From Verrucomicrobiota bacterium (GTDB taxonomy: Bacteria > Verrucomicrobiota > Verrucomicrobiia > Opitutales > Opitutaceae), in the NCBI GenBank assembly GCA_016222805.1, contig JACRQG010000007.1, positions 124,001 to 188,000 on the forward strand: 64,000 nucleotides of DNA, in the 5' to 3' direction. Positions 6,749 to 50,813 of this stretch are shown here, one piece after another (position 1 is the stretch's first letter; each line of letters starts with the position of its first letter). Under the pieces are notes generated by a model, which had not been told where the DNA came from, ran no database searches, and saw nothing but the letters and a program-made list of their open reading frames with translations. A program made the translations under genes and the position numbers.

Positions 6749-6790
6749 AGGACGGGGTCGGGGCGGTCCGCGACGGTACACGGCGCCGGT

Positions 6791-8755: not shown

Positions 8756-8782
8756 GCGAAGGGCGGGGTCTCCCCGCGGCGG

Positions 8783-9175: not shown

Positions 9176-9184
9176 GGCGCCGGG

Positions 9185-9787: not shown

Positions 9788-9914
9788 GGCGATGGAGGCG
9801 GTGAGTGCGGAAGACGAAACGGCTTCACCTTGCCCCCTGCAGGCGACCCCGGCGAGACGGAACTGATTACAACGCGGTTGATTGTTTCCGCGGCTGCCGC
9901 AACGTGGATCGCCG

Positions 9915-28080: not shown

Positions 28081-28108
28081 GATTACAAAGATGTAATCAC
28101 GCGGTCAC
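28081..28108 (+). promoter_or_regulatory. OmpR-type response-regulator operator ahead of the cytochrome-porin gene
   Basis: GATTACA-AAGA-TGTAATC is a perfect 18-nt dyad at 28081-28098. Its right half continues as TGTAATC-ACG-CGGTCAC. The same TGTAATC-N3-CGGTCAC string recurs at 31746 upstream of the 4Fe-4S gene. The two-component system encoded between the two copies is the obvious candidate binder. Confidence 0.65.
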
Positions 28109-28184: not shown

Positions 28185-29459
28185 ATGAAATCCTGCCGTT
28201 TCCTGCTCGTGGCCACGCTCGGAGGGCTCGCTGCGACTTCCGCCCACGCCATCCCTGCATGGTCCCGCTCCGAAGCCACCGCGTGTTCGAGCTGTCATGC
28301 AACGCCCACGTGGCAACTCACCAATGTCGGTCTCGACTTCCTGAAGAACGGGCACCGCAACGATCCCTTCAAGCACAACAACAACGCGATGAAGTGGGAC
28401 AACTACTTCAGCCTGCTGTGGAAGGCCCGGGCTTGGAACGATCGGCTTGACGACGCAAGGACCGGCAACGCCAACACGCAGCGGCCGAGCACCAACTTCG
28501 AGCAACACTCCTTTGCGCTCTATACCGGCGGCTCCCTCGCTGAGCGGTTCTCTTACTTTACCGAGATCTACCTGAGTGAAAACACCGGAGCTACCTCCGG
28601 TGGAAACATCGGGCAGGGCGACGCCGCGCGCAAAAAACTTGCCGAGGCGTTTCTCCAATACAATCACCCGATCGCACCCGACACGTTTCTGGCGGTGCGC
28701 GGTGGCGAAATTCTCCCGGCGATTCTCCACGTGTTCGGGGTGGGGGCCCGCTCAATCGAACAGCGCCCGGTGGTGTTGAACGACGCACTGGCCGGCAGCC
28801 TCAATACGTACCGCCCCTTCAGCCGCCAGCAGGGCGTCGATGCGACCCTGACCGGCAAGCACTACGAGGTCAGTGTCGGCATGGTCAACGGTTCGGACAC
28901 CTCGACCACGAATTCCTGGGATGCAGACAGTCACAAGGATCTCTACGTGTCCGGCATCTACAACTTCGATGAACACGAGTCCGGCGCGGGCGTCTTCCAC
29001 TACGACGGCCAGTTTACCAACTACACGGTAAAGCAGGATTTCAGCACGCCGATTCTGTTCCGAAACGACTTCTATCGCACGGGATTGTTGGGCCGCTTCA
29101 TCCGCGACAAGTGGCGGATCGTCGGCACCTACTTCGTGGGAGAGGAGATGATTTCCGCGGCGAAGGCCAAGGCAAAGAACGTCGGCTACTATCTGCTGGC
29201 CGACTACAATTTCTCGGATCGGATCGGTATCTTCGGCCGCTATGATCGACTGGATCCCAACAAGGACCTGAGCCGGAACGAAACCTCCCAGGTCATTTTC
29301 GGTGGCAACGGCCTCCTCTACGCCACCCTGAAGAGCGCCGCCCGGCTCTCGATCGAATACTCGATTCGCGAGACCTATCTCGGTGGCACGATCTCGGCGG
29401 CCGGCACAACGAAATACAAGGACCACCGGATTTACACCCAGCTCACCTGGGGGTTCTGA
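28185..29459 (+). CDS. Cyc2-like fused cytochrome c - outer-membrane porin
   Basis: This protein has 424 residues from the ATG at 28185, chosen because it opens a signal peptide (MKSCRFLLVATLGGLAATSAHA). The mature N-terminus is IPAWSRSEATACSSCHATPT, carrying one heme c motif CSSCH. WQLTNVGLDFLKNGHR follows. This matches the pattern of Cyc2-type iron-oxidising cytochrome-porins (APxFARQTGxxCxxCHxxxxPxLxxFGRxFKxxGY). The remaining ~370 residues alternate short amphipathic strands (RFSYFTEIYLSENTG, HYEVSVGMVNGS, KWRIVGTYFVGEEM) and end in LTWGF, a typical beta-barrel C-terminus. It probably moves electrons across the outer membrane. The substrate (Fe(II), copper or another donor) is not predictable. 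A terminator follows, and a dyad operator lies about 90 nt upstream. Confidence 0.75.
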   Translation: MKSCRFLLVATLGGLAATSAHAIPAWSRSEATACSSCHATPTWQLTNVGLDFLKNGHRNDPFKHNNNAMKWDNYFSLLWKARAWNDRLDDARTGNANTQRPSTNFEQHSFALYTGGSLAERFSYFTEIYLSENTGATSGGNIGQGDAARKKLAEAFLQYNHPIAPDTFLAVRGGEILPAILHVFGVGARSIEQRPVVLNDALAGSLNTYRPFSRQQGVDATLTGKHYEVSVGMVNGSDTSTTNSWDADSHKDLYVSGIYNFDEHESGAGVFHYDGQFTNYTVKQDFSTPILFRNDFYRTGLLGRFIRDKWRIVGTYFVGEEMISAAKAKAKNVGYYLLADYNFSDRIGIFGRYDRLDPNKDLSRNETSQVIFGGNGLLYATLKSAARLSIEYSIRETYLGGTISAAGTTKYKDHRIYTQLTWGF

Positions 29460-29495: not shown

Positions 29496-29528
29496 GCCAG
29501 CGCGGTTTGGTCACCGCGCTGGCTTTTT
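29496..29528 (+). terminator. intrinsic terminator after the cytochrome-porin gene
   Basis: GCCAGCGCGG-TTTGGTCA-CCGCGCTGGC is a perfect 10-bp stem followed by TTTTT. It separates the cytochrome-porin message from the two-component genes, so the latter need their own promoter or read-through. Confidence 0.93.
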
Positions 29529-29626: not shown

Positions 29627-30310
29627 ATGGCTAACGCGATGCGCATCCTGGTCGTCGAAGATGAGCGCAAGGCTGCCGACTACCTGAAGAAGGGACTTTC
29701 GGAGTCAGGCTTCGTTGTCGACATCGCCCATCGCGGAGAGGACGGGCTGCATCTGTCGCTGACCGAGTCCTATGACCTGATCGTGCTGGATGTGATGCTT
29801 CCAGGCTGCGACGGCTGGTCGATCCTGACCGCGTTGCGCACGTCCGGCCGGACGACCCCCGTGCTTTTCCTGACGGCGCGCGACAGTGTGCCGGACCGGG
29901 TGAAAGGCTTGGACCTGGGGGCCGACGATTACCTGGTAAAGCCCTTCGCCTTTTCCGAGTTGCTGGCGCGGATTCGGACCATCCTCCGGCGCGGCCCCAG
30001 CCGGCAGAGCGACGTTTTTCAGATCGCGGATCTCGAGATCAACCTCCCGCGGCATCGAGCCTCCCGTGGCGGTCAGCGACTGGATCTGACTCCGAAGGAG
30101 TTTGCCCTGCTGGCGCTGCTGGCCCAGCGCAAAGGAGAGGTGCTGTCGCGAACCCTCATCGCCGAGCAGGTCTGGGAAATGAATTTCGATAGTGACACCA
30201 ACGTGGTCGATGTCGCCATCCGCCGCCTACGGGCAAAGGTGGATGACGGCTTTCCGCGACCGTTGCTGCATACGGTGCGCGGAGTCGGTTATGTCCTTGA
30301 AGAACGCTGA
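29627..30310 (+). CDS. OmpR-family response regulator, heavy-metal (CusR/CopR) type
   Basis: This protein has about 227 residues from the ATG at 29627; a second ATG 12 nt later (MRILVVEDE) is equally plausible. The receiver domain has the acidic pair (VEDE), phospho-acceptor Asp at about residue 55 ([10 protein letters not shown]), and the switch Thr/Lys ([16 protein letters not shown]). The winged-helix output domain includes [20 protein letters not shown] and [19 protein letters not shown], the CusR/CopR/CzcR subtype. It overlaps the kinase gene by 20 nt. It is the likely reader of the TGTAATC motifs on both sides. Confidence 0.93.
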
Positions 30311-31742
30311 AGCTACTCCACGTCCGCCCGCCTGGTCGTTGGCGAACCGACTTACCCGGCACTATGTTTTGTCTGCGGTGATCATTCTGGGGCTGGCGGT
30401 GTTCACGCTGCATTGGACGCTGGAACGCTCCCTCGATGCCCGGGATCGGGCACAAGTACTGAGCAAGGTGCAGGTGCTGCAGACGCTCTTGCGGGAGCAC
30501 TTTGACAAGCCGGAAATCCTGATCAGCGAGATCGAGCACGAGGCGGCGGAGAATCAGGCGCTCAGGTACTATCTGCGCATCCTTGATGCGCAGGGGGTGA
30601 CCTTAATGGAAACGACTGGAATGAGGCAGGTTCTGCCGCCTTCCATCTTTCCGCCGGCGGCTCCTGTGGCCATAACGCGATTTGCTGGCGGGAGTGGCGC
30701 CTTGTTCGAGCACCAGACCTTTCTACTTGCATCGGTCGAGGCGATTGCCGGTGGAGGACCTTCGCGGAAGCGTAGTCTGCAGGTGGGCTTGGAACTCACG
30801 CCCACGATCGTCTTGATTGAGAGCTACCACCGCGTGTTGCTGGCGGTGCTGGTGGGGGGCGCGGCGCTGATGGGATTGGCCGGCTGGGTGATCGCCCGTC
30901 GAGGCGTCCGGCCCCTGTGGGATCTGGCGGACGCGACGCGGAGAGTCACCGCCAGCCGGCTGAGCGAGCGGGTGAGCGGCCAGCAGTGGCCCGCTGAACT
31001 CGGCCACCTGGCCGGTGCCTTCGACGAAATGCTGGTTCGTCTCGAGGATTCATTTCGGCGCCTGACGGACTTTTCCTCCGACCTTGCGCACGCGTTGCGC
31101 AATCCCATCAACAACCTGCGGGGAGAAGCTGAGGTGGCGCTGGCGCGCGCACGTAGCACCGAGGAGTACCAACAGGTGCTGGCCTCAAGTCTCGAGGAAC
31201 TCGAGCGACTCTCTCGGATGATCGACGGACTGTTGTTTCTGGCCCGGTCCGATGATGCCCGCGTCGCCATCCAGCGGGTAACGCTCAAGGCCCGGCGCGA
31301 ACTCGAAGCGGTGCGCGAGTTCTACGACGCCGTGGCTACAGAGGGAAAGGTGACGCTGCGTTGCGAAGGCGAAGCGGCGTTTCAGGGCGATCCGATGCTG
31401 GTTCGACGGGCGGTGAGCAACCTCGTGGGCAACGCACTTAAGCACACCCCGCCTGGAGGGAACGTCGTCGTAACGGCTCGGGAGGAAGAAGGGGGAGGCG
31501 CGGAGATTTCCGTGCGCGACGATGGGGCTGGCATTCCTGCCGAGCTGCTGCCGCGAGTATTCGAGCGCTTCTTCCAAGTGGACAAGTCCCGCGACCTGAC
31601 CGCGAAAGGAGCGGGTCTGGGCCTCGCCATTGTCCAGTCGATCATGCGGCTGCACGGTGGAGAAGCCAGGGTGGAGAGTGTCCTCGGCCGCGGGACTACC
31701 GTCACGTTGCGTTTTCCAGGGTCCAGGCATCCGGTGTCGTGA
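30291..31742 (+). CDS. heavy-metal-type sensor histidine kinase
   Basis: This protein has 483 residues from the ATG at 30291, inside the last codons of the regulator gene. It has TM1 ([18 protein letters not shown], about 23-40), a periplasmic sensor of about 125 residues, and TM2 ([20 protein letters not shown]). A HAMP domain ([20 protein letters not shown]) comes next. The H-box [17 protein letters not shown] has the phosphorylated His near residue 267, and N, G1 and G2 boxes follow ([36 protein letters not shown]). The H-box and HAMP are of the CusS/CopS heavy-metal sensor subfamily. The periplasmic domain has no obvious Cys/His cluster, so the signal may not be copper itself. Confidence 0.92.
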
Positions 31743-31795: not shown

Positions 31796-33202
31796 ATGAA
31801 GGCGCATACCGGAGCTGGTGAAGGGGAAGGTGGCATGGAGTCAGGAGACATTGACTTGATGCGTCGGCCGGCCGTATCGGCCCTGTTGCGTGCGGCGTGG
31901 TTCCCGCGGATCGTGCAATGGCCACTGCTGGTGTTGTTCCTCTCCTTCATCGTGGTGGGTTGGGGGCTGCTTCCGCCCGCTGGCGTGAACGACAAGCTGT
32001 ATGCCCGTTCCAACCTGGTTACCCTCGTGGTCTGGGGAATCTGGTGGCCCTTGATGGTCTGGGGAGCCTTTTGGTTGGGGCGGGCATGGTGCCTGGTCTG
32101 TCCGCTCGAACTGGTCAACAACCTTGGCGAGCGCGCGGCCTCGCGGACCGGGCGGAGCGCGCCGTCTCTGCCGCGGCACCTGGCCGGCGGAGCGGTCATC
32201 CTCGTGCTCTACTTCGGCCTCCAGATGCTCGTACCCGGGGCGGGCCTGCACCGCACGCCGGCGTACACCGCATGGTTCCTTCTCGGCTTGGTGACGTTGG
32301 CCCTGACGGTCGGGTTTGTCTGGCGTGACCGGGCGTTTTGTCGCGGGTTCTGCCCGGTGGGACTGCTCCTCGGAACCTACGGTCGCGGCGGCATGGTGGC
32401 CGTACGTCCGGCACCCCACCAACCTGCCGGGGCTCCTGCTGGTCCCGATGTCCGAAGCTGTCCAAGCCTGCTTCATCCTTCGCGGCTTTCTGACAATGCC
32501 GACTGTCTCGTCTGCACGCACTGTTTCAAGCAGGCTCCCGCGGGTTCGATGCGGTTATTGCTGCGCCGGCCGTTCTCTGCGACTGACCAGCGGGAGTCGC
32601 TCGCCTCCTGGCCTGTCACGGGATTCGTGATGGTCGCGTCCGGCTTTGTCAGCAGCGAGCTCTGCTCCGAGTGGGCGGCGGCCAAGAAGGTGTATCTCGC
32701 CGCTCCCAAATGGGCGACGGCGCAGGCTGGCTGGCAGGCCGGTGCCGGCTGGATCGAAGGCGTCTGGACGCTGCTGGTCGTGCCGGGGTTGATCTGGCTG
32801 GTGCTGGGCGGAATACTGCGACTGGCCGGAGAGAAGGCGCCGCTGCCGGAGCTGTGGCGGCGCATTGCCCTACCGGTGGCGGTCGTGGTGGCGGCCGGGC
32901 ATTTGAGCAAGGGACTCGCGAAACTCATCTCCTGGGTACAGTTCCTTCCAGGCGCGATCAGCGATCCGGCGGGCAGGGAAACCGCGCGGGCGATCACACA
33001 CCACAAGGTCACGGCGCCGGCTCCCGTACTCAGCGTGCAGACGGCCTCTTGGGCGGGTGTGGCCCTGGTGGCGCTGGCGCTAATCGTAGCGGTGCGGGAG
33101 TACCGGCTGGCCCGGCCGGAGGCCCCTGGGATTCAGCGCGGTGCCTGGCCGCTCGCCACCTTGGCCGGCGGCTACGGCTTCGTCATCGCGGGTTGGAATT
33201 GA
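31796..33202 (+). CDS. NosR/CcoG-like multi-span membrane 4Fe-4S protein
   Basis: This 468-residue protein has about ten membrane helices. An N-terminal GRAWCLVCPLELVNNLGERA and a central DRAFCRGFCPVGLLLGTYGR form the CxxCP / CxxxCP pairs of the NapH/NosR/CcoG superfamily. A cytoplasmic loop follows with SCPSLLHPSRL and DCLVCTHCFKQAP. In the last motif the fourth ligand position is Ala, and the preceding SCP cysteine may replace it. The CxxCxxKxC stretch expected after 'VAVRP' in relatives reads APHQPAGAPAGP. It probably passes electrons between quinol or a cytochrome and a periplasmic partner. Both ATG 31796 (AGGA at -7) and ATG 31835 (GGAAGG) have ribosome-binding sites. Confidence 0.8.
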   Translation: MKAHTGAGEGEGGMESGDIDLMRRPAVSALLRAAWFPRIVQWPLLVLFLSFIVVGWGLLPPAGVNDKLYARSNLVTLVVWGIWWPLMVWGAFWLGRAWCLVCPLELVNNLGERAASRTGRSAPSLPRHLAGGAVILVLYFGLQMLVPGAGLHRTPAYTAWFLLGLVTLALTVGFVWRDRAFCRGFCPVGLLLGTYGRGGMVAVRPAPHQPAGAPAGPDVRSCPSLLHPSRLSDNADCLVCTHCFKQAPAGSMRLLLRRPFSATDQRESLASWPVTGFVMVASGFVSSELCSEWAAAKKVYLAAPKWATAQAGWQAGAGWIEGVWTLLVVPGLIWLVLGGILRLAGEKAPLPELWRRIALPVAVVVAAGHLSKGLAKLISWVQFLPGAISDPAGRETARAITHHKVTAPAPVLSVQTASWAGVALVALALIVAVREYRLARPEAPGIQRGAWPLATLAGGYGFVIAGWN

Positions 33203-33249: not shown

Positions 33250-33570
33250 TCAGCGACGGTGAATTTCTCCAGTCAGCTCCCGCAGACGCGCTTCGACTTC
33301 TGCCAAGACTTTCCGGCCGGCGGCGGTGGTCCGGTAGGGGCAGGCCTCCTTGGAGGCGCGCCGGGCATGCTTCTTCACCCGGGCGAGCCAGCCGAGTTTT
33401 TCCATCCGTGCCAGCAAGGGGTAGAGCGTGCCGGGACTGACCCGGTAGCCGTGTTCCCGCAGTTCCTCCAGCATCCAGTGGCCGACAATCGGGCCCTCCT
33501 CCGCATGGTGCAGGATGTGCACCTTCCAGAGTGGGCGGAGGATCTCGCGTTCCAGGGCTTGCTCGTTCAT
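33250..33570 (-). CDS. PadR-family transcriptional regulator
   Basis: This 106-residue winged-helix protein has the PadR core: VGHWMLEELREHGYRVSPGT, then LYPLLARMEKLGWLARVKK, then YRTTAAGRKVLAEVEARLRE. It is short, lacking the long C-terminal helical domain of PadR-s1, so it is the s2-like type. It is divergent from an RND efflux operon. The long palindrome at 33579-33609, between its start and the pump genes, is an obvious operator, so it probably represses itself and the pump until an effector binds. Confidence 0.9.
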   Translation of the reverse strand: MNEQALEREILRPLWKVHILHHAEEGPIVGHWMLEELREHGYRVSPGTLYPLLARMEKLGWLARVKKHARRASKEACPYRTTAAGRKVLAEVEARLRELTGEIHRR

Positions 33571-33578
33571 CGATGTCG

Positions 33579-33609
33579 GAGACAGATTACGACAGTCGTA
33601 ATAGGTCTC
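33579..33609. promoter_or_regulatory. PadR operator palindrome
   Basis: GAGAC-AG-ATTACGAC-A-GTCGTAAT-AG-GTCTC is a 31-nt dyad with 13 of 15 base pairs symmetric around one central base, and a perfect 17-nt core. It begins 8 nt upstream of the padR start codon and 121 nt before the RND gene, and fits a dimeric winged-helix regulator. Confidence 0.75.
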
Positions 33610-33729
33610 TGTGCGGAGACGGGAAGGAAAATGCGTCGTCTGGGCAGGAACTGCTTGTCTTCACGGTCTCCCGTGTAACCAATCCGGCACGCGTTCGTCT
33701 GTGCCCCGACCCCCGTCCAGCCTCCCGGC

Positions 33730-36700
33730 ATGAATTTCCTGCAACTCGCCCTGCGTCGTCCCCTCACGGTTCTCGTCCTAGTCATCGCAGTCGCCCTGGC
33801 GGCCGGGCTCGCCGTCCAGCGGATGTCGCGCGACATCTTTCCGCCGCTCGGCGTCCCGACCATCTATGTCGCGCAGCCCTTCGGCGGCATGGACCCGGCC
33901 CAGATGGAGGGATACCTGACTTATCGGTACGAGTACCACTTCCTCTACATCGCGGGCATCTCGCACGTGGAGTCGAAGTCCATCCAGGGGGCTTCGATCA
34001 TGAAGCTCCAGTTTCACCCGGGCACCGACATGTCGCAGGCGCTTTCCGAGGTGATCGCCTACGTCAACCGCTCCCGCGCCTTCATGCCGCCGGGCACACC
34101 CGCGCCGTTCGTCACCCGCTTCGATGCCGGCAGCGTCGCCGTCGGTTACCTGGTCTTCTCGACCACCAATCCCAACCGCACGCTCGGAGAGATGCAGGAT
34201 CAGGCGCTCAACCGCGTCCGCCCGTCCTTTGCGACGCTGCCGGGCGTGTCGGCCCCGCCGCCCTTCGGCGGCAGTTCCCGCGGCATCATCGTCAACGTCA
34301 ACCCGGAGCGCATGCGCTCCTACGGCCTCTCGCCCGACGAAATCGTGCAGGCCCTGGCCGAAGCCAATCCCATCAGTCCCTCGGGCAACATGAACCTCGG
34401 GGACAAGTATCCGATCGTGGAGATGAACTCGATCGTGAAGAACCCGAAGGACCTTGAGGCCGTGCCGCTCAAGCGCGGGGCCGGCGGCGCCGTGTTTGTC
34501 CGCGATGTGGCCACGATCGAGGATGCCTCCGACGTTGTCACCGGCCACGCGCTCGCCAACGGACTCCGCACGGTCTACCTGCCGGTCACGAAACGCGGCG
34601 ACGCCTCGACGCTCGAAGTGGTGCGCCTGGTGAAGGAGAACATCCCCGAGTTCCAGAAGATCCTGCCCGACGATATCAAGGTCAGCTACGTCTTCGACCA
34701 GTCGCCGGTGGTGAATCGCTCGATTCAGGACGTGCTCAAGGAAGGCGGCTTTGGCGCCCTGCTGACCGGCCTGATGGTGCTGCTCTTCCTGCGCGACTGG
34801 CGCAGCGCCTTCATCGTGGTGATCAACATTCCGTTGTCGCTGCTCGCCGCGGTCTTCGCCCTCTGGATCACGGGGCAGTCGATTCACCTGATGACGCTGG
34901 GCGGACTGGCGCTGGCGATCGGCATCCTGGTCGACGAGTCGACGGTCGCGGTGGAGAACATCCACGCGCACATCGCCCGCGGCGATTCGGTGGCGCGGGC
35001 GGCGCTCGAAGGCACGCGCGAGACGGCGCTGCCGCGGCTGCTCGCGATGTTGTGCATCCTGGCGGTCTTCATCCCCGCCTTCTTCATGGTGGGTTCCGCG
35101 AAGGCGCTCTTCGTGCCGATGGCGCTCGCGGTCGGCTTCTCGATGATCGCGTCGTACCTGCTGTCGAGCACGCTGGTGCCGATCCTGTCGGTCTGGTTCC
35201 TGCGCGGCCACGGCGCGGAGATTCACGAGGCCTCCTATTTCGGCCGCATGCAGCGGGCCTACGCCGGCCTGCTGCGCGGATTCGTGACCCTGCGCTGGCC
35301 GCTGGCCATCCTCTACCTGGCGGTCTGCGGCGGGGTCATCTGGGGCGTGGGCGGCCGGCTCGGCACGGAGATCTTCCCCAAGACCGACAACGGCCAGTTT
35401 GCCCTCCGTCTGCGGGCGCCGAGCGGCACGCGGGTCGACAACACCGAGGCGCTCGCCAAAAAGGTGCTGGAGACCATCGCCCGCGAGGCGGGCGGGGTCG
35501 ACAGGATCGAGGTCTCCATCGGCATGGTCGGCGTGCACAATTCGAGTTTCCCGGTGAACCTCGTGCATCTCTGGAACGGCGGCCCCGAAGAGGGCTGGCT
35601 GGCGGTGCAGTTCAAGCCGGGCACCGGCCTCCGCATCGAGGCGTTCAAGGAGAAGTTGCGCGGCATCTTCGCCCGGGAGTTTCCCGACGTGCGTTTTTCG
35701 TTCGAGCCGCAGGACATCGTGGCGCGGGTCATGAGCTTCGGCTCCCCGACGCCGATCGAAATCGCCATCAGCGGCTCTTCGCTGCCGGTCAGCAAGGAGT
35801 ACGCCGACCGCATCATCGAGCGCCTGAAGGCGATTCCGTACCTGCGGGACATTCAGATCGCGCAGACGCTCGATTACCCGACGGTTGCGGTGAACGTCGA
35901 TCGCGAGCGCGCCGGCCTGCTCGGGGTGCGCATCTCCGACGTGACGCGCTCGCTCGTCGCCGCGACGACCTCGAGCCGTTTCACCACGCCCATCTTCTGG
36001 GCCGATCCGGGCTCCGGCATCAGCTTCAACGTGCAGGTGCAGATTCCGGAGGCGAAGACGACCACGCTCGAGGATCTCGGCAACGTGCCGGTCAAGGCGG
36101 CCGCCGGCGAGGACGCCGTGCTCCTGCGCAACCTCGCCACGATCACCCAGGGAACGGCGCCGGGCACCTACGAGCGTTACAACGTCGCCCGGCTTCTGAG
36201 CATCACCGCCAACATTCACGGTTCCGACCTTGGCACGGCGTTGCGCGGCATCCGGCAGGCGGTGGCGCAGGCCGGCGCGCCGCCCGAGGCGCGGACGAAG
36301 GTCGACTACCGCGGCCAGGCGATTCCACTCGGTCAGCTCATGGACGGTTTTCGTTCGGGTCTGATCATCGCCGTCGTCGTGATTTTCCTGATGATCATGG
36401 CGAACTTCCAGTCGGTGCGCCTGGCGGTCGCGGTCATCTCCACCGTGCCGGCCGTGTTGTCGGGTGTGGTACTGACGCTCTGGTTCACCGGCACGACGCT
36501 CAACATCCAGTCGGCGATGGGCGCCATCATGGCGGTGGGGGTCGCGGTCGCGAATTCGATCCTGCTGGTGACCTTCGCCGAACAGACGCGCGTCAAACGG
36601 GCCGATCCGGTGGCCGCGGCCATCGAGGGTGGCAGCAGCCGGCTGCGGCCGATTCTCATGACCAGCTTTGCCATGATCGCCGGCATGATGCCGCTCGCCC

Positions 36701-36897
36701 TCGGCCTCGGCGAGAGCGGCGACCAGACGGCTCCGCTCGGTCGTGCCGTCGTCGGCGGGCTCGCCTTCGCGACGGTGGCCACCCTCCTGGTGCTGCCCAG
36801 CGTCTTCACCCTCCTGACGTCCCGGACGGTTCGCTCTCCGTCCCTGGATCCGGATGACCCGGCGAGTTCCCACTATTCCCAGTCCCGCACTTCTTGA
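33730..36897 (+). CDS. RND efflux pump permease (AcrB/HAE-like)
   Basis: This 1055-residue inner-membrane transporter has twelve helices in the RND plan. TM1 is PLTVLVLVIAVALAAGLAVQ. Two large porter loops are interrupted by TM4 with the proton-relay region ILVDESTVAVENIHAHIARG. The second half has a matching MAVGVAVANSILLVTFAEQ and GMMPLALGLGESGDQTAPLG. The opening MSRDIFPPLGVPTIYV is the usual RND start, though the HAE 'QNPLPG' variants are absent, so the drug spectrum is unknown. Its stop overlaps the adaptor start by one base. Confidence 0.95.
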   Translation: MNFLQLALRRPLTVLVLVIAVALAAGLAVQRMSRDIFPPLGVPTIYVAQPFGGMDPAQMEGYLTYRYEYHFLYIAGISHVESKSIQGASIMKLQFHPGTDMSQALSEVIAYVNRSRAFMPPGTPAPFVTRFDAGSVAVGYLVFSTTNPNRTLGEMQDQALNRVRPSFATLPGVSAPPPFGGSSRGIIVNVNPERMRSYGLSPDEIVQALAEANPISPSGNMNLGDKYPIVEMNSIVKNPKDLEAVPLKRGAGGAVFVRDVATIEDASDVVTGHALANGLRTVYLPVTKRGDASTLEVVRLVKENIPEFQKILPDDIKVSYVFDQSPVVNRSIQDVLKEGGFGALLTGLMVLLFLRDWRSAFIVVINIPLSLLAAVFALWITGQSIHLMTLGGLALAIGILVDESTVAVENIHAHIARGDSVARAALEGTRETALPRLLAMLCILAVFIPAFFMVGSAKALFVPMALAVGFSMIASYLLSSTLVPILSVWFLRGHGAEIHEASYFGRMQRAYAGLLRGFVTLRWPLAILYLAVCGGVIWGVGGRLGTEIFPKTDNGQFALRLRAPSGTRVDNTEALAKKVLETIAREAGGVDRIEVSIGMVGVHNSSFPVNLVHLWNGGPEEGWLAVQFKPGTGLRIEAFKEKLRGIFAREFPDVRFSFEPQDIVARVMSFGSPTPIEIAISGSSLPVSKEYADRIIERLKAIPYLRDIQIAQTLDYPTVAVNVDRERAGLLGVRISDVTRSLVAATTSSRFTTPIFWADPGSGISFNVQVQIPEAKTTTLEDLGNVPVKAAAGEDAVLLRNLATITQGTAPGTYERYNVARLLSITANIHGSDLGTALRGIRQAVAQAGAPPEARTKVDYRGQAIPLGQLMDGFRSGLIIAVVVIFLMIMANFQSVRLAVAVISTVPAVLSGVVLTLWFTGTTLNIQSAMGAIMAVGVAVANSILLVTFAEQTRVKRADPVAAAIEGGSSRLRPILMTSFAMIAGMMPLALGLGESGDQTAPLGRAVVGGLAFATVATLLVLPSVFTLLTSRTVRSPSLDPDDPASSHYSQSRTS

Positions 36898-37964
36898 TGC
36901 CTCCCGTGACCACCCCCGCCATGACTTCCTCCCGTTCTCTCGCGCTCAGCGCGGTCGTGCTTTGCGCTGCGGTCGCCCACGGCGCCCAACCCGCTCCCGA
37001 GGTGCCGGTCACCAGCCCGCGGCGTGGCGACATCCACCGGTTCGTCACGCTGCCCGGTTCGCTCCGCGCCAACCAGCAGGTGACGCTGCACGCGAAGGTC
37101 CCCGGCTATCTCAAGGCGATCAAGGTCGACAAGGGCGACGCGGTGAAGGCGGGCCAGTTGCTGGCGGAACTTGATCTGCCGGAAATCACCGCCGAACGCG
37201 CCCGCCACGACGCCGAGGTGCGGCTCGCGCAGGCCGAGTTGAATCGCATCAAGGCGGCCCAGGCCAAGGCCCCCGACCTTATCACGCCGCAGGCGGCCGA
37301 TACCGCCAACGCGCGGCTCGCGATGGCCCAGGCGGCCTTGCGCCAGAGCGACGCGCTCCTGCGGTACGGCCGGGTCACGGCCCCGTTCGCCGGCGTCATC
37401 ACAGCACGGTTCGCCGACCCGGGCGCGTTTGTCCCGGCGGCGACGGCGGGCGGCAATCCGGCGGCGGCGGCAGTGGTGGCGCTTTCCGATTACTCCGTCG
37501 TGCGTGCGCAAGTCGCGGTGCCCGAGATCGAGGCTGCGCGCATACAGCTCGGCCAGCCCGTGATCATTGGCTCGGATGCCCTGCCCGGGCGCACCTTCCG
37601 TGGCGTCGTGGCGCGCCACGCCGGCGCACTCGACGAGAAGACGCGCACACTTTCGGTCGAGGCCGATTTTCCCAATGCCGACGGCACCTTGCGCCCGGGC
37701 ATGTATGTGAACGCCCGCGTCGGGGTGGAACTGCATCGCAACACCCTGCTGGTGCCGGCGGCGGCGTTGGTGCGGGAGAAGGCGGCGGGTTTCCTGTTCC
37801 TGCTGGTCGATGGCAAGGCCAGCCGGGTGCCGGTGAAGTACGGATTCAACGATGGCACGTCGGTCGAAATCCTGGAGGGCGTCGCCGAAAACGCGCGCGT
37901 GCTGGTCCCGGGCAAGATCGCGCTGACCGCGGGTCAGGCCGTGACGGCGGTGGAGGCGAAATGA
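36897..37964 (+). CDS. RND periplasmic adaptor (membrane fusion protein)
   Basis: This protein has about 355 residues. An ATG at 36897 overlaps the pump stop; the ATG at 36921 gives a tighter signal peptide (MTSSRSLALSAVVLCAAVAHGAQ). The lipoyl half-motifs are QVTLHAKVPGYLKAIKVDKG with GDAVKAGQLLAELD, and YGRVTAPFAGVITARFADPG. Between them lies a short coiled-coil hairpin (ERARHDAEVRLAQAELNRIK). Beta-barrel and membrane-proximal domains follow. There is no lipobox. It bridges the pump and the TolC-like channel. Confidence 0.93.
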   Translation: MPPVTTPAMTSSRSLALSAVVLCAAVAHGAQPAPEVPVTSPRRGDIHRFVTLPGSLRANQQVTLHAKVPGYLKAIKVDKGDAVKAGQLLAELDLPEITAERARHDAEVRLAQAELNRIKAAQAKAPDLITPQAADTANARLAMAQAALRQSDALLRYGRVTAPFAGVITARFADPGAFVPAATAGGNPAAAAVVALSDYSVVRAQVAVPEIEAARIQLGQPVIIGSDALPGRTFRGVVARHAGALDEKTRTLSVEADFPNADGTLRPGMYVNARVGVELHRNTLLVPAAALVREKAAGFLFLLVDGKASRVPVKYGFNDGTSVEILEGVAENARVLVPGKIALTAGQAVTAVEAK

Positions 37965-39325
37965 AGGCCATGAGCGTGATCGGTTTCCCCTGCGGCTTTC
38001 GACTGGAGGGCGCGGCGAGGGCCTTTGGCCTTCGCGCAGGACTGGCGTTGCTGGGTGCGGCCGCGGGGTGGGCCGGCGAACCCACGCCGACCAATATCGA
38101 CCTGGCGACCGCGCTGAAACTCGCCGGCGGCAGCAACCTCGAGGTGGAGATTGCCCGGGCCAAGGTCGCCGAGGCCAGGGCGGCCAGCGAGTCAGCCCGT
38201 TCCCGCTTCTTGCCCTGGCTGGCGCCGGCGATCGTGGTGCGCCGGCACGACGCCAATGTCCAGGCGGTGAACGGTCCCGTGATCGATGCGGACAAGCAGT
38301 CCTTGTCGGCGGCCATCGGGGTCAACGCGCAGTTTGATCTGGGGGAAACTTACTTCCAGAACCTCGTGGCCAAGCAAGTGGTGCGCAGCAGCGAGGCCGC
38401 GCTGGCGGGGCGCACGCGAGAGACGGTCCTGCGGGCCGCCACGGCGTACTTTGAGCTGGCGCGCCTGCGGGCGGCAGTGACGGCGGCGGAGGAATCGGCC
38501 CGGGTCGTGGCGCGGCATCTGGAGCAGGTGACGGCGACGGTGACGGCAGGACTGACCTTCCAGGGCGATGCGGCCCGCGTGCGGGCGGCCTACGAACGGG
38601 CGGAGTTGACGACCACGCGGTTGCGCGCGGAACAGCGGATCGCGGCGGCGCGCCTCGCCGAAATCCTGCGGCTCGATCCTGCGGTGGATCTCGTGCCGGC
38701 GGAAACCGAACTGGCGCCGATCGTCCTTCTGGACAGCGGGGATTCGCCCGGGCCCCTCATTTCCCGGGCCCTGGCGGTCCGACCTGAATTGGATGAAGCC
38801 GCGGGGCGACTCGAGGTCGCCCGCACGCAGCGGCGCAGTGCCACGGTGGGACCCTGGATTCCGACGGTCGGAGCCCAGGCCACGTTGGGCGGCCTCGGAG
38901 GCGGCCCCTCCGGTTCGACCGTGACCCGTGATTGGGGCTACAGTGGCGACTACGGGATTGGCCTCAGTTGGCGGGTGGGCCCGGGTGGTTTGCTGGATGA
39001 GAACCGAAAGCGCGAGACGGCGGCCCGGGAAAGGCAGGGGGAACTCGACCTCGAACGCGTGCGGGATGCGATTCGACGCCAGGTGGTGGAGCAGCACACG
39101 CGGGTGCGCGCGCTCAAGACCCAGGTCGATTTCTCCCGAAAGGCCCTCGAAGCGGCGGAAATGACCGCTCGCCTCTCGCGGCAGCGCCGGGAAGTAGGGG
39201 TCAGCCAGGTGCTGGAGGATTTGCAGGCGGAGGAGGAACTGGCGAGGTCGCGACGCGAGTACCTGACGATGCTGGCTGAGCACAATCAGGCGCAGTACGC
39301 CCTGAAGTTCGCGGTCGGAGACTGA
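37961..39325 (+). CDS. TolC-family outer-membrane efflux channel
   Basis: This 454-residue protein starts in an ATGA overlap with the adaptor. It has a signal-like N-terminus (LRAGLALLGAAAGWAGE) and the tandem OEP helical repeats, with NIDLATALKLAGGSNLEVEI in the first half and a second set near LISRALAVRPELDEAAGRLE. It forms the outer-membrane duct of the tripartite pump. No lipobox is seen. It ends 92 nt before hemN. Confidence 0.92.
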   Translation: MKAMSVIGFPCGFRLEGAARAFGLRAGLALLGAAAGWAGEPTPTNIDLATALKLAGGSNLEVEIARAKVAEARAASESARSRFLPWLAPAIVVRRHDANVQAVNGPVIDADKQSLSAAIGVNAQFDLGETYFQNLVAKQVVRSSEAALAGRTRETVLRAATAYFELARLRAAVTAAEESARVVARHLEQVTATVTAGLTFQGDAARVRAAYERAELTTTRLRAEQRIAAARLAEILRLDPAVDLVPAETELAPIVLLDSGDSPGPLISRALAVRPELDEAAGRLEVARTQRRSATVGPWIPTVGAQATLGGLGGGPSGSTVTRDWGYSGDYGIGLSWRVGPGGLLDENRKRETAARERQGELDLERVRDAIRRQVVEQHTRVRALKTQVDFSRKALEAAEMTARLSRQRREVGVSQVLEDLQAEEELARSRREYLTMLAEHNQAQYALKFAVGD

Positions 39326-39417
39326 GGGAGCTTCCCGCAAAGTTTGCGCGGAGCTTGGCAAGTGCTGCGCAGCGGCATAGACTGGCGTTTGCCATAGTTT
39401 CTCCGGCCCCCACAGCC

Positions 39418-40824
39418 ATGATTCTTCCCACTGAACCTACCGTTTCCAGTCGCGCCGCCCCCCTCGCGCTGGATCTGATCCGCAAGTACTCGATTCCCGG
39501 GCCGCGCTACACCTCCTACCCCCCGGCGACTCAATTCACCGCCGACCTCCCGACGGTGCGACTGGAAGATGCTATTGCGGAGGATAATGCGCCGGGAGCG
39601 GGTCCGGTCTCCCTGTATTTTCACCTGCCGTTTTGCGAGACCCGGTGCTGGTTTTGTGGGTGCAACACCGTGATCACGCGGCGACGGGATGCCGCCGGGG
39701 AGTATCTCGACGACTTGGCGCGGGAAGTGAAGCTGACCGCGGCGCGGATGGACCGGACGAGACCGGTGACCCAGGTTCACCTGGGCGGTGGCACCCCGAC
39801 CTTCTTTCCCCCGGATCAACTGCGGCGCCTGGGAGCCCTGCTCCGGGAGTACTTCCAAATCGCCCCGGACGCGGAGTTCAGCGTGGAAGTGGACCCGCGG
39901 CGACTGACGGAAGAGCACGTGGTGGCCCTGCATGAGATTGGGGCCAACCGGGCTTCACTCGGGGTTCAGGACACCGATTCCCGGGTGCAGTTGGCCATTC
40001 ATCGCTTCCAGCCGCACCACCTGAACCAGCGGGCGTTCGAGTGGATGCGGGGCCACGGTTTCGAGTCGGTCAATGTCGACCTGATCTTCGGGCTGCCGTT
40101 GCAGAAAGCCGAGGGCTTCTCGCGGACGATCGAGGATGTGCTGGCGCTCAGCCCGGACCGGCTGTCGGTGTTCAGCTATGCGCATGTGCCGTGGATCAAG
40201 CCGGCCCAGCGGATCTTCGATGATCGCGGACAGCTGCCGACGGCGGAGGAGAAGCTCGCGATGTTCGCGCTGGCCCACGAAAAGCTGACGGCCGCCGGGT
40301 TTGTGGACATCGGGCTCGATCATTTTGCCCGGCCGGACGACTCGCTGGCGGTGGCGCAGCGTTCCGGGACCCTGCACCGGAACTTCCAGGGATATACGAC
40401 GCAGGCGGGGGCGTCGCTCTACGCCTTTGGGATCTCCTCAATCTCGTCCACGGCAAACACCTACCGGCAGAACCACAAGGCGCTGTTGGAGTGGCGGGCC
40501 TCGCTCACGGCCGGGGAGCTCCCGGTGGAGCGAGGGCTGCGTCTGACGGAGGAGGACCAGCGCCGGCGCACGATTATCATGCGTCTGATGTGCGATCGCC
40601 GCCTGGACTATTCCGTGCTGTCACGATTGCTCGGATTGGACTTCGCGGCGACCTATGCCGCCGACCTCGGCCGCCTGGAGGACTTGCGAGAGGACGGGCT
40701 GATTCGCTTTTCGCCGCAGGGCCTCGAGGTGACGCCGGTGGGCATTCCCCTGCTGCGCGTGATCGCGATGCGGTTCGACCCGTTGTTTACCGCCGCCCCG
40801 CGGCGTCACGCGCAGGCAATCTAG
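39418..40824 (+). CDS. hemN: oxygen-independent coproporphyrinogen III dehydrogenase
   Basis: This radical-SAM protein has 468 residues from the ATG at 39418 (the ORF track adds 21 residues). The N-terminal trip-wire YSIPGPRYTSYPPATQF and the cluster motif FCETRCWFCGCN (Cys near 73/77/80/82) are those of genuine HemN, not HemW. The HLGGGTPTFF and RASLGVQDTDSRVQLAIHR segments follow. It decarboxylates coproporphyrinogen III to protoporphyrinogen IX without oxygen. I see no FNR box upstream. Confidence 0.95.
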   Translation: MILPTEPTVSSRAAPLALDLIRKYSIPGPRYTSYPPATQFTADLPTVRLEDAIAEDNAPGAGPVSLYFHLPFCETRCWFCGCNTVITRRRDAAGEYLDDLAREVKLTAARMDRTRPVTQVHLGGGTPTFFPPDQLRRLGALLREYFQIAPDAEFSVEVDPRRLTEEHVVALHEIGANRASLGVQDTDSRVQLAIHRFQPHHLNQRAFEWMRGHGFESVNVDLIFGLPLQKAEGFSRTIEDVLALSPDRLSVFSYAHVPWIKPAQRIFDDRGQLPTAEEKLAMFALAHEKLTAAGFVDIGLDHFARPDDSLAVAQRSGTLHRNFQGYTTQAGASLYAFGISSISSTANTYRQNHKALLEWRASLTAGELPVERGLRLTEEDQRRRTIIMRLMCDRRLDYSVLSRLLGLDFAATYAADLGRLEDLREDGLIRFSPQGLEVTPVGIPLLRVIAMRFDPLFTAAPRRHAQAI

Positions 40825-40842
40825 GACCGGTTTGCTTTTTCG

Positions 40843-40879
40843 GTAGCCGCGCTTCAGCCGAAGGCAAAAGCGCGGCTAC
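40843..40879. repeat. REP-like palindrome between hemN and the Cu ATPase
   Basis: GTAGCCGCGCTT-13 nt-AAGCGCGGCTAC is a perfect 12-bp inverted repeat in the convergent gap. A shorter relative (GTCGCCGCG...CGCGGCTAC) occurs at 54665-54688. This is the usual setting of dispersed extragenic palindromes; it could also act as a bidirectional terminator. Confidence 0.65.
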
Positions 40880-40897
40880 GGAAGCACGGAGAGCGTC

Positions 40898-43009
40898 CTA
40901 CGTCAGTGACAGGCGCCGCAGCCGAAGCGCGTTGGCGACGACGGTGATGGAGCTGAGGCTCATCGCCACCCCGGCAAACATCGGGTTGAGCAGCCAGCCG
41001 GTGAAAGGAAACAGGGCTCCGGCCGCGAGCGGCAGGCCGGCCAGATTGTAGGCGAAGGCCCAGAAGAGGTTCTGCTTGATGGTCCGCAGCGTCGCCCGGC
41101 TCAGGTGCACGGCACGCACGAGGGCGGCCAGATCGCCTTGGACGAGCACAAGGCCGGCACTGTGCATCGCCACATCCGTGCCGGTGCCCATGGCGATGCC
41201 GACGTCGGCGGCGGCGAGTGCCGGCGCGTCGTTGAGCCCGTCCCCGGCGAAGACCACCCCGTGCTCGTCCGAGCGATGGCTGCGGACGAGTTCCTGCTTT
41301 TGGGCCGGGGTGACCGCGGCATGGTAGCCGTCCAGCCCGAGCTGGGTGGCCACCGCCCGGGCCGTCGACTCCCGGTCGCCAGTGACCATGATCACCCGGA
41401 ACCCCAGTCGCTGGAGTTCGCGAATCGCCGCCGGGGTGGTGGCCTTGACCTCGTCGGCGAGCGCAATCGTGCCGATTCGTTCTCCCTCGACGGCGACGGC
41501 CACCAGCGTCGCGGTGGCAAATGCTCCGACATCATGGACGGCCCGGGACACCTCCACCAGGCGACCCTCGATCCGCGCACGCACCCCGAATCCGGGCTCC
41601 ACGGCGAAATCGGTCGCGATGGGAAGAGCCAGTCCCCGCTCCTGGGCGGCGCGGACGATTGCGCGGGCGAGAGGATGTTCGCTGGCGGATTCCGCTGCCG
41701 CGGCGTAGGTCAGCAGTTGCGCCTCCCGTGCCGATGCGGCCGGGCTGGAGGCCGGAGTTTCGCCCGTGCCGGAGAGTTCAAGTCCGACCACCCGGGGATG
41801 TCCGGCCGTGAGCGTGCCGGTCTTGTCGATCAGCAGGGTGCGCACCCGGGCAAGGCGCTCAAGGGCAGCGGCGTCCTTGACCAGCACGCCAGCCTGGGCG
41901 CCGCGGCCGATGGCGGTTACCAAGGCGACCGGCGTGGCCAAGCCAAGGGCGCAGGGACAGGCGATGATCAGAACGGCGACGGCGTTGATGAGGCCGAAGA
42001 CCCAGCCGGGTGCCGGCCCGGCGATCGTCCACACCAGGAAGGTGACGGTGGCAATCGCGAGGACGATGGGAACGAACACCGCGGAGACCCGATCGGCGAG
42101 GCGCGCGATCGGCGCTTCGCTTTCTTGGGCTTCCTCGACCAGGCGCACGATCTGCGCGAGCAGGGTGTCGCGGCCAATCCGTTCGGCCCGGAAGGTCAGG
42201 GTCCCGGTGGTGTTCAGGGTGCCCGCATGGACCGGGCTGCCGCTGGCCTTCTCGACCGGCTCAGGCTCACCGGTGAGCATCGATTCATCGACGCTCGTGG
42301 CGCCCTCGAGGACGGAGCCGTCGACCGGGATTTTCTCGCCCGGGCGGACCCGAAGGGTGTCGCCGACCTTCACCTCTGCAACCGGGATGTCGGTTTCGAC
42401 TCCCGTCTGATCGAGGCGGTGGGCGATTTTCGGTGCGAGATCCATCAGCGCCCGGATGGCGAGGTCGGTCCGGGCGTGTGCCCGTTGTTCCAGAATCTGA
42501 CCAAGCAGAACAATCGTGGTGGTGACCGCTGCGGCCTCGAAGTAGAGCGGGACGCCGTGGGCGCTGCGGAACGCCTCCGGAAAGCGCGCGGACAGCAGCA
42601 GGGCCGCGGTGCTGTAGAAGTAGGCGGCCCCGGTGCCGGTCACGGTCAGCGTGAACATGTTGGTGTCACGCTCCCGGATGGAGGTCCACCAGCGCCGGAT
42701 AAACGGGGCGCCACTCCAGAAGAACACCGGCGTGGTCAGCAGGAACTGGAGCCAACCCGACAACTGCGGGTTCACGTGGTGAGCCAGGGAAGGCCAGACC
42801 ATTTCGCCCATGGAAAGGACGAGCACCGGCAGGCTGAGGGCGGTGGCGGCGAAGAACCGCGGTCGAAGGTACCGCTCGTGTGGCAGGCCCATGTAGACCG
42901 GTTCGGAGGCCGACTCCGCTGAGGCGCCGGAGGCCTGGGCTCCATGGTGGTGACCGTGGGCGTGGCCGGGATGGTCGGGAAGAGAAGGAGAAGGGGACGG
43001 TTTCATCAC
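40898..43009 (-). CDS. copper-translocating P1B-type ATPase
   Basis: This 703-residue ATPase has a His-rich tail at the N-terminus ([12 protein letters not shown]) in place of CxxC metal-binding domains, and eight membrane helices. The actuator motif is [11 protein letters not shown]. The translocation motif is [13 protein letters not shown] (CPC near residue 351). The phosphorylation site DKTGTLT is near 395, followed by SEHPLA and [20 protein letters not shown]. The CPC motif indicates Cu(I) (or Ag(I)) export. The His-rich tail recalls CopB/SilP. It lies downstream of the CorE-like sigma gene after a 242-nt gap, so it may be a target of that factor. Confidence 0.92.
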
Positions 43010-43251
43010 TCAGGAGACGGAGCCGAAGCGCGGATCTTACAGCTTCCCACCCAGAGGGTCGTGCGGGAGGGGAAACACTCTGGCGCCGCCCGACGGCGAT
43101 TCACAACGCCAGATGTCCGAAGGCGGACGGGAGGCGCACACCGAGGACCGGCGACGCGAGAGCACGCCGACGGCGCGGTCGCCCGGTCGCCGTCGTTTTT
43201 GCCCGCCTTCACGGTACGACCGCCGAGGCAGGTAATCCGCCTCGCTGGCCT
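43010..43251 (-). other. gap between CorE-like sigma gene and Cu ATPase
   Basis: This 242-nt gap presumably holds the promoter of the ATPase gene. A small inverted repeat CGAGGC-9 nt-GCCTCG lies at 43224-43244, right after the sigma stop, without a T-run. I see no credible ORF and cannot assign -35/-10 elements by eye. Confidence 0.4.
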
Positions 43252-43872
43252 TCACGGGGGCGGAACCCTCGGTCGCCGGGACGCGGATTGCGTAGCCTTC
43301 GCGGTGGTCGCAGGCTGGCGGGGGTTTTCCGGAGGACAATCGCAGTCGAGGCACTTGCCGCGGGCGCATTCCCCGCAGAACTCCAGCAGCTTTCGGCGGA
43401 GTTCCTGCCGAGCGCGGTGGAGGGCGACGCTGGCATGGTTGGGGGTGAGACCGAGTTCGGCCGCTGCCGCCGCCACGGAGGCGCCCTGCCATTCCACCAG
43501 ACGCAGAAGGTGCGCCTGACTGGGCTTCAAAGTGGAGATGACGTGATCGAGACAGGCGCAGACCGCCCGGGCGGCCGTGGCATCGTTTGCAGACAACGCC
43601 ATGAAGTCCTCGGTCCAGGCCTGCTCCCGGCGTCGGGCAGCGGTGCGACTCCTTCGGAAATCCACCGCAGCGCGGCGCAAGATCTGGTAGAACCAGGCGA
43701 CCGCCTTTTCCTCCTCCTTCAGCTCCGGCGCCTGGCGGAGGGCTTTCACCAGCCCGTGCTGCAGCAGGTCATCGGCATCGGCGGCATTGCCGAGGCGGGC
43801 GGCCAGAAAGGATCGAAAGGCCTGGCGTTGCGCCAGCAGTCGACGGGCCAGGGTGGACGCGGAGGCAGGCAT
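43252..43872 (-). CDS. CorE-like ECF sigma factor with Cys-rich C-terminal tail
   Basis: This protein has 206 residues from the ATG at 43872; the ORF track start lies inside the previous gene. It has sigma region 2 (ADADDLLQHGLVKALRQA; VAWFYQILRRAAVDFRRSRT) and region 4 (LKPSQAHLLRLVEWQGASVA; TPNHASVALHRARQELRRKL). The tail is CGECARGKCLDCDCPP (C-x2-C-x4-C-x2-C-x-C). This tail is the hallmark of CorE-type factors (ECF44/ECF238), in which copper bound to the cysteines directly switches DNA binding and no anti-sigma is needed. Its ATG overlaps the stop of the PepSY gene by one base. It is probably a cytoplasmic copper sensor for the neighbouring export genes. Confidence 0.85.
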   Translation of the reverse strand: MPASASTLARRLLAQRQAFRSFLAARLGNAADADDLLQHGLVKALRQAPELKEEEKAVAWFYQILRRAAVDFRRSRTAARRREQAWTEDFMALSANDATAARAVCACLDHVISTLKPSQAHLLRLVEWQGASVAAAAAELGLTPNHASVALHRARQELRRKLLEFCGECARGKCLDCDCPPENPRQPATTAKATQSASRRPRVPPP

Positions 43873-44516
43873 CAGGGGGAGAACCACTGCAAGCCCAGGG
43901 CGAACCACGCGCAGAGGACGAGGCCGCTTCCCAACGCGATGCCTCCCTGCCAGCGCAAACGGGAGCGGAGCAACCAGGAGACGATCCCGGTTCCCACCAG
44001 CGCGATGATCCCGAGCGAGAGCGCGTCCATCGTCCAGACCCAGAGGGAGGTCAGCCACCAATCCCGATCGTTCAAGGAGTCGTTTGCGCGCACGCCCGAA
44101 AAGGTGTGCAGCGCCCGGCTGACGCCCCAGCCATTGACCGTGGTGGTCTGGAGCACCACCCGGCCCGCGCGGAGGTCAGCCTTCACTTCCACCTGCCGGC
44201 CCGGGCGCTGGACCCGGAAATCAAGGCGCGTGGCGTCCGCGGGGGTGACGAGCCAGTGCACCTCGCCGGTCAGCCGGAGCTGGTGCAGGAGGTGCCTGGC
44301 CTGTTCGAGAGGGGAACCCGGCGGCGGAGCGACGACGGCCACCTCGGTCGTTTCCACCCGTCGCTTCGACCAGAACTCGGCGAAGCCCCAGGCGTGGTTC
44401 AGCAGCAGTCCTGTCAGGGCGAACAACCAGAGAGCGAAAAAGAAGTACAGTCCCAGCAGGATGTGGATGCGACGCATCCACGATGTGGCGACACCTTCGG
44501 CTTGTGGGGAGTTCAT
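43872..44516 (-). CDS. PepSY-type membrane protein, second of a pair
   Basis: This protein has 214 residues from the ATG at 44516. It has an N-terminal helix (LLGLYFFFALWLFALTGLLL), a periplasmic domain of about 120 residues, and two C-terminal helices (DALSLGIIALVGTGIVSWLL; GSGLVLCAWFALGLQWF). This is the PepSY-associated TM layout common in metal uptake/efflux clusters. It shares ATGA overlaps with its neighbours on both sides (4 nt upstream; 1 nt with the sigma gene). A redox or metal-reductase role is possible, but no heme or flavin motif is clear. Confidence 0.75.
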   Translation of the reverse strand: MNSPQAEGVATSWMRRIHILLGLYFFFALWLFALTGLLLNHAWGFAEFWSKRRVETTEVAVVAPPPGSPLEQARHLLHQLRLTGEVHWLVTPADATRLDFRVQRPGRQVEVKADLRAGRVVLQTTTVNGWGVSRALHTFSGVRANDSLNDRDWWLTSLWVWTMDALSLGIIALVGTGIVSWLLRSRLRWQGGIALGSGLVLCAWFALGLQWFSP

Positions 44517-45139
44517 CGCACCAGGGCCCCGACCAGGCCGGCCAGGGTGCAGGCTCCGACGGCGAAGAAGATCACGCCGGAGCGGCGCAGGGTGTGAGAC
44601 CACCACCACCAGAGAAGGCCGCTGACGGTGACGCCCAGCACCAGCACGACACTGGCATCAGCCACCCAACGCCAGGCCTGCATGAAGCCGGAGTTGCCAC
44701 GGATCGCGACGTTGTGTGGTCCCGGCATGCGATGCAGGTAGATCAGGGCGTCCGCCAGGCCGGTGCGGCGGGTCGTGAGGTCGGCCGTGCGGGCCTCGAG
44801 GTGCAAATCCACGGTCGTTTCCCGGCCGGGAAGGCTGACGGGCAGGACCATCCGTCGTTCCCGCGGCACGTAGCGCACGTGGCCGATTTCTCCGCTGACC
44901 TGCAGCTGCGCCAGGAGGCCGCGCAGGGCCGTCAGTTGGTCGGCGAGGGGGCGCTTTTCCAGGTCGGGAGGAACGGGGAGATCGGACACGGTTCGCTTCT
45001 CGACGGCGCCGGCGGTGCGCGGCGCCCAGCCGTGAACAAGGAGGATCGCGCTGACGGCGAAGAGCAGGAGCAGGGGACTGACAAAGAGGCCGGCCAGCAC
45101 ATGCAGGTCGCGCACGGTGCGCTGGACGCGGGCGTTCAT
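44513..45139 (-). CDS. PepSY-type membrane protein, first of a pair
   Basis: This protein has 208 residues from the ATG at 45139. It has an N-terminal helix (LHVLAGLFVSPLLLLFAVSA, with the HVLAG start of PepSY-TM proteins). A periplasmic part contains LIYLHRMPGPHNVAIRG. Two C-terminal helices follow (VVLVLGVTVSGLLWWWWSHT; VIFFAVGACTLAGLVGALV). The HRMPG/HRWLG-like histidines resemble positions binding heme in related reductases, but this is not certain. It overlaps the CusA-like stop and the next start by 4 nt each, so it is co-translated. Confidence 0.75.
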   Translation of the reverse strand: MNARVQRTVRDLHVLAGLFVSPLLLLFAVSAILLVHGWAPRTAGAVEKRTVSDLPVPPDLEKRPLADQLTALRGLLAQLQVSGEIGHVRYVPRERRMVLPVSLPGRETTVDLHLEARTADLTTRRTGLADALIYLHRMPGPHNVAIRGNSGFMQAWRWVADASVVLVLGVTVSGLLWWWWSHTLRRSGVIFFAVGACTLAGLVGALVR

Positions 45140-49038: not shown

Positions 49039-49079
49039 AGGGAGTGCCTGGGTCTGGTTTGGGAGACGGCATGGTGGGA

Positions 49080-50405: not shown

Positions 50406-50414
50406 GGCGGGTAT

Positions 50415-50792: not shown

Positions 50793-50813
50793 GGCGGGAG
50801 GAGGCCGGGAGGT

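Follow-up and report, generated by a model that had tools for sequence, protein, structure and literature searches.

A predicted cytochrome-porin family sister to Cyc2 and linked to a CusRS-like two-component system in Opitutaceae

Cyc2 serves as a genetic marker of iron oxidation by microbes. The Cyc2 proteins of Acidithiobacillus, Mariprofundus and Gallionellaceae combine a signal peptide, one CXXCH near the mature N-terminus and a 16-strand porin (PMC8406198), and Keffer et al. (2021) warn that distant homologues may function otherwise (PMC8406198). In the Mtr/Pio/Mto systems a large, separate barrel is paired with a decaheme cytochrome. The phosphate-selective OprP/OprO porins (Porin_O_P, PF07396) also form a 16-strand barrel, but OprP is devoid of a heme domain. 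The targets of CusRS-class systems (CusRS/CopRS/CzcRS) and of HprRS are an efflux pump or MsrPQ, and the E. coli CusR/HprR box is CATTACAAAATTGTAATG (PMC9302797).

We analyzed a 64,000-nucleotide stretch (the window) of the genome assembly GCA_016222805.1 (contig JACRQG010000007.1, positions 124,001 to 188,000). The host is an opitutacean, in agreement with the verrucomicrobial-type genome deduced in an earlier sequence-only reading. That reading also proposed an extracellular electron-transfer unit not described for this lineage. The latter statement was too strong, because Cyc2 homologues had been listed in bog-lake Verrucomicrobia MAGs by He et al. (2019) (PMC6344600), although no such unit appears there. 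A description of the present cytochrome-porin family, or of its pairing with a regulator, was not found in the open-access literature.

Cytochrome-porin and its relation to Cyc2

The gene and its immediate features are as follows:
28185..29459, + strand: cytochrome-porin, 424 aa, ATG start; signal peptide (residues 1-22), heme domain (23-58) and predicted 16-strand barrel (75-423)
28284..28298, + strand: CSSCH heme c attachment site (residues 34-38); Cys34, Cys37 and His38 are invariant in a 19-row alignment
29496..29523, + strand: intrinsic-terminator-like hairpin 3' of the porin gene, 11 pairs followed by a TTTTT tail

The open reading frame encodes a signal peptide, the mature N-terminus IPAWSRSEATACSSCH and ∼350 barrel residues thereafter. 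The proposal that a CSSCH motif at the mature N-terminus is joined to a beta-barrel region was borne out. As in Cyc2, a single CXXCH follows the signal peptide, and the length of 424 aa lies above the Cyc2 threshold of at least 365 aa. The gene is single-copy in its own 7.9 Mb genome. Sequence searches against Pfam, NCBIfam and the PDB returned nothing significant, and neither viral contigs nor plasmids, the latter searched with the whole protein as query, contained a relative. The 18 homologues share 47-76% full-length identity with the window protein. The flanks ATPTxQL and GHR are invariant among them, together with the heme Cys, Cys and His.

A structure prediction with a 16-strand barrel as the expected outcome had been set beforehand, and the absence of a barrel would have spoken against the proposal. 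AlphaFold2, run with the window sequence and the 18 homologues, modelled exactly 16 strands between residues 75 and 423 (pLDDT 72, pTM 0.75). The loop that connects strands 5 and 6 contains short helices, a feature of classical porins. The best Foldseek matches were the 16-strand porins VhChiP, PorB, Omp32, OprP (2o4v) and OmpF, with E values of 1e-11 to 1e-8. These predictions point to a 16-strand porin fused behind the heme domain, as in Cyc2. The heme domain itself (residues 23-58) was modelled with low confidence and without heme; by analogy with the published Cyc2 model (PMC8406198), the heme would sit in the mouth of the barrel. The protein differs from the Mtr/Pio/Mto systems in having one heme and a fused barrel, and no further CxxCH reading frame was found in the surrounding 22 kb.

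To compare the protein with Cyc2 we used five Cyc2-type plasmid proteins whose sequences show the published motif or a near variant of it (hosts: Caballeronia, Methylocystis, Ideonella, Polymorphobacter and Acidithiobacillus ferrooxidans), none of which is a characterized Cyc2. The heme-domain profile of the family aligned with the Cyc2 profile over 40 columns (hhalign probability 97.8%, E 7e-13); the reversed control gave 2.6%. With an unrelated monoheme CxxCH protein only the heme pentapeptide region aligned (11 columns). In the whole genome, the profile of the five proteins matched the window gene alone (E 2.4e-5). The best pairwise E value, obtained against only these five proteins, was 8e-4, where the blastp threshold for Cyc2 is 1e-5 or better. 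By profile comparison, therefore, there is a clear relationship between the window heme domain and the Cyc2 heme domain, which share the pattern A-P---R ... CxxCH ... L ... G--F---G. In contrast, a profile comparison of the two barrels detected no sequence similarity (0.3%).

The residues that flank the heme site had been read as following the Cyc2 pattern, which proved to be a resemblance only. In place of the upstream motif AXPXFAR[QK][TY], the window protein has AIPAWSRSE, which keeps A, P and R, but not F, A, Q/K and T/Y. The PXL motif four residues after CXXCH is replaced by ATPTWQL, with a one-residue insertion; P is at H+3 and L at H+7. The Bdellovibrionales members come nearest to the published motif (AVPAFGRT). 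A GY pair is invariant in the five Cyc2-type proteins, whereas GHR stands in its place in all 19 members of the window family, which makes His57 a candidate second heme ligand. Of the Cyc2-like identity first proposed, the architecture and the related heme domain stood. Since the motifs differ and the barrel has no detectable Cyc2 similarity, we did not assign the protein to Cyc2 proper, and we conclude that it belongs to a family sister to Cyc2, with Cyc2 architecture.

A two-component system and a promoter palindrome linked to the porin gene

The window family further differs from Cyc2 in its dedicated two-component system and its promoter palindrome:
28081..28098, no strand assigned: palindrome GATTACA-AAGA-TGTAATC, predicted response-regulator site, ∼85-105 bp before the porin start; the only exact copy in the genome
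28103..28108, + strand: third half-site GGTCAC, 11 bp after TGTAAT, with an OmpR-family-like 11-bp period
29627..30310, + strand: response regulator, CusR/CzcR/CopR subfamily (TIGR01387, 347 bits; cut-off 279)
30291..31742, + strand: sensor histidine kinase, CusS/CzcS subfamily (TIGR01386, 407 bits; cut-off 293); overlaps the regulator gene, open frame from 30192

A two-component pair adjoins the cytochrome-porin gene in 15 of 18 loci, the exceptions being L012, L023 and L024. In all Opitutaceae loci except L012, the porin gene is followed by the response regulator of the window (74-84% identical) and by a kinase. In Holophagaceae, a 51% identical regulator and a kinase lie in front of it, and two Bdellovibrionales loci (L025 and L026) have a more distant pair behind it (regulator 36% identical). 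The conserved unit is therefore the cytochrome-porin plus the two-component system. The periplasmic domain of the kinase contains a conserved EIEHE-type motif and no conserved Cys.

The sequence GATTACAAAGATGTAATC is situated ∼100 bp upstream of the window gene. The pattern GATTACA-N4-TGTAATC, with its 14 positions exact, occurred once in the 7.9 Mb genome, and the reversed control pattern did not occur. All ten Opitutaceae loci that possess the two-component pair show the palindrome ahead of the operon, at 9-12 of 12 positions; because the window supplied the consensus, it is the remaining loci that test it, and several of these are related and not fully independent. It was absent from L012, the Opitutaceae locus without the pair. 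A search of 316 kb, made up of the window and the related loci, for sites matching 10 or more of the 12 positions gave hits ahead of the porin operon in nine Opitutaceae loci, the window included (the L017 site has 9 of 12), and five hits elsewhere, four of them in AT-rich Bdellovibrionales loci. Where a small cytochrome gene stands in front of the porin gene, the site is at -351 to -463, upstream of that gene in most loci.

For OmpR-family regulators an 11-bp half-site period is expected. The third half-site (GGTCAY-like) is present as GTCA in the same place in 9 of 10 loci, and as GTCC in L011. The window palindrome resembles the E. coli CusR/HprR box CATTACAAAATTGTAATG (PMC9302797), and both the regulator and the kinase score above the subfamily cut-offs. 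It is thus predicted that the adjacent response regulator binds GATTACA-N4-TGTAATC. Those near-matches (one or two mismatches) whose surroundings were inspected fell in or near seemingly unrelated genes, and no wider regulon was seen. In contrast to CusRS-class systems and HprRS, the apparent single target here is the cytochrome-porin. No comparable palindrome common to the whole group was recognized in Holophagaceae or Bdellovibrionales; in two of the three Holophagaceae, repeats of the CCTGAT-N6-ATCAGG type precede the porin gene.

The TIGR matches, the synteny and the conserved palindrome support the postulated link between a metal-type two-component system and the porin gene. A third partner had also been postulated, and the window contains the corresponding gene, followed by a regulator gene on the opposite strand:
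31796..33202, + strand: membrane protein with CxxxCP 4Fe-4S-type motifs, weakly NapH-like (sub-cut-off Fer4_5/NapH matches)
33250..33570, - strand: PadR-family regulator (PF03551), common to L019/L004 only, 74% identical

The CxxxCP motifs of the membrane 4Fe-4S protein are present as described, but its family matches are weak and below the cut-offs. In a synteny survey of the three genes, the porin gene and the two-component pair mostly stayed together, while a homologue of the 4Fe-4S protein was not detected at E 1e-6 in any related locus. The three-gene unit was therefore abandoned, and the 4Fe-4S protein was ruled out as a partner. By eye, an in-frame stretch before PadR in L004 (11492-12148) and L019 resembles the C-terminal part of this protein.

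Distribution and neighboring genes

A family scan of ∼85,000 species genomes returned 17 loci: ten from Opitutaceae or unclassified Opitutia/Verrucomicrobia, three from Holophagaceae (Geothrix fermentans, G. limicola and a MAG), one from a gemmatimonadete and three from Bdellovibrionales contigs, one of which has the porin gene in tandem. Behind this tandem duplicate, in a Bdellovibrio MAG (L025, 7974-10784), lie genes for a regulator, a long kinase and a diheme protein. Among 26 genomes of the genus, 2 others contain the porin gene, against none of 68 other relatives in the family and order; a 388-genome sample of the phylum yielded one further carrier, from the same family.

The tree clusters the sequences by phylum (Bdellovibrionota 100/100, Acidobacteriota 94/94) and places the window protein beside that of Opitutaceae bacterium F1-140 (100/97). 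The end of rpoC precedes the porin gene in both the window and F1-140 (L010). The gemmatimonadete copy forms a long branch next to the verrucomicrobial sequences. The patchy occurrence across four phyla suggests that the family has undergone transfer and loss.

Six Opitutaceae loci (L013-L018) carry, directly upstream of the porin gene, a gene for a small monoheme protein of ∼90-100 aa (KLAWNKKA..CxxCH..EKPKK..LSERGQWL..WLKDYP), which is likely the periplasmic partner of the porin in these loci. Two members scanned against Pfam gave no match, and a counterpart was not found elsewhere in the window's genome. In L012, a cytochrome c and a NapC-like multiheme protein lie next to the porin, and NrfHA is found near two Holophagaceae copies. 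In the gemmatimonadete L023, a DmsE/MtrA-like decaheme cluster adjoins the porin. Cytochromes with 4, 7, 10 and 16 hemes stand beside this porin (5215-12371), and the 10- and 16-heme genes flank the gene of an unannotated 500 aa protein, an arrangement that is possibly an Mtr-like conduit. In the host genome, a contig other than that of the window encodes a NapC-like 6-heme protein (L044; G000 contig C36, 80-91 kb), in a cluster whose ortholog adjoins the porin in L012. It also encodes an 11-heme protein, part of which is formate-dehydrogenase-gamma-like, and probable genes for cytochrome c biogenesis lie next to the two.

A metal-homeostasis stretch (33250-52055) begins with PadR in the window and continues with:
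33730-39325: tripartite RND pump
39355-40824: HemN
40898-43009, - strand: copper-type P-type ATPase
45136-49038, - strand: CusA/CzcA-type RND
50814-52055, - strand: outer-membrane efflux protein

The neighborhood of PadR in L019/L004 includes two chromate transporters as well as a second two-component system.

Possible roles of the cytochrome-porin

A heme-bearing pore that is a distant cousin of Cyc2 and is usually paired with a sensor system probably serves electron passage. At a probability of roughly 0.6, the cytochrome-porin is an electron gate in the outer membrane that acts on dissolved metal ions under the control of a sensor. The 16-strand porin would provide the entry from outside for a small, dissolved solute with redox activity, and at its N-terminal, periplasmic mouth the single heme would exchange electrons both with this solute and with periplasmic c-type cytochromes; the most likely step would be oxidation of a reduced metal ion at the cell surface. 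Upon perceiving a presumed signal, the adjacent CusRS-class kinase and regulator would switch the porin gene on via the upstream GATTACA-N4-TGTAATC. In this way the protein probably passes electrons between dissolved extracellular metals and respiratory proteins. Besides the predicted barrel, the kinship of the heme domain, the adjoining two-component pair and the palindrome, the electron-transfer proteins encoded next to family members in other loci speak for this reading. The lack of barrel similarity and of the Cyc2 motifs, the low-confidence model of the heme domain and the failure to find the small monoheme partner in this genome speak against it.

Should the porin be a functional Cyc2, it would be a respiratory Fe(II) oxidase, taking electrons from dissolved Fe(II) and supplying them to the respiratory chain. 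The Cyc2 architecture, the related heme domain and the origin of several family members from groundwater metagenomes are consistent with this role, as is the Fe(II) oxidation by Cyc2 proteins of three clusters (PMC8406198). However, PXFAR[QK][TY] and PXL are lacking, GHR replaces the GY of the five Cyc2 compared, CusRS-type regulation was not found in the Cyc2 literature searched, and the family carrier Geothrix is known as an Fe(III) reducer (PMC6344600) and has been termed an electrogen (PMC12285243). We regard a functional Cyc2 as somewhat unlikely. A role in metal or redox stress (e.g., copper), in which a surface oxidoreductase is induced by the CusRS-like system and is not respiratory, would fit the CusR/CzcR-class regulator with its CusR/HprR-like box (PMC9302797), the RND pumps, copper-type ATPase and CusA/CzcA pump further along the window, and the position of the L019/L004 copy between the chromate transporters. 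However, metal-resistance genes were not recognized beside the unit in most other Opitutaceae loci, several members adjoin respiratory-type cytochromes instead, and both the regulator and kinase subfamilies are broad; we place this role on the unlikely side.

Electrons could also flow outward, with a monoheme conduit reducing small extracellular acceptors (humics, quinones or chelated Fe(III)) in anaerobic respiration. The family is present in G. fermentans and G. limicola, and NapC-like, NrfHA or multiheme neighbors occur in L012, L021, L022 and L023; yet the Holophagaceae and most L023 cytochrome neighbors lie on the opposite strand and may be unrelated. One heme is unlikely to span the membrane, so that solid acceptors are improbable, and outward flow is itself an unlikely reading. 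An ordinary solute porin with a merely structural or sensing heme is very unlikely: the family profile does reach a heme-less, OprP-like porin and one member matches Porin_O_P (PF07396, 5e-4), but overall sequence similarity to OprP is marginal, conservation within the family is among the highest at the heme site and its flanks, and cytochrome genes frequently adjoin the porin gene.

A more specific and somewhat unlikely reading goes beyond the electron gate for dissolved metal ions: the lineage sister to Cyc2 would have turned into a sensor-controlled surface electron valve that handles a non-iron metal or stress rather than iron respiration and that is, in Opitutaceae, the sole target apparent for a dedicated CusRS-like system. 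With Cyc2 architecture, a related heme domain and metal-type control of its own, a sister family found in Geothrix, an iron reducer, and in Opitutaceae tests whether Cyc2 architecture implies iron oxidation or a general surface electron gate. Because G. fermentans and G. limicola are cultured, this question is directly testable.
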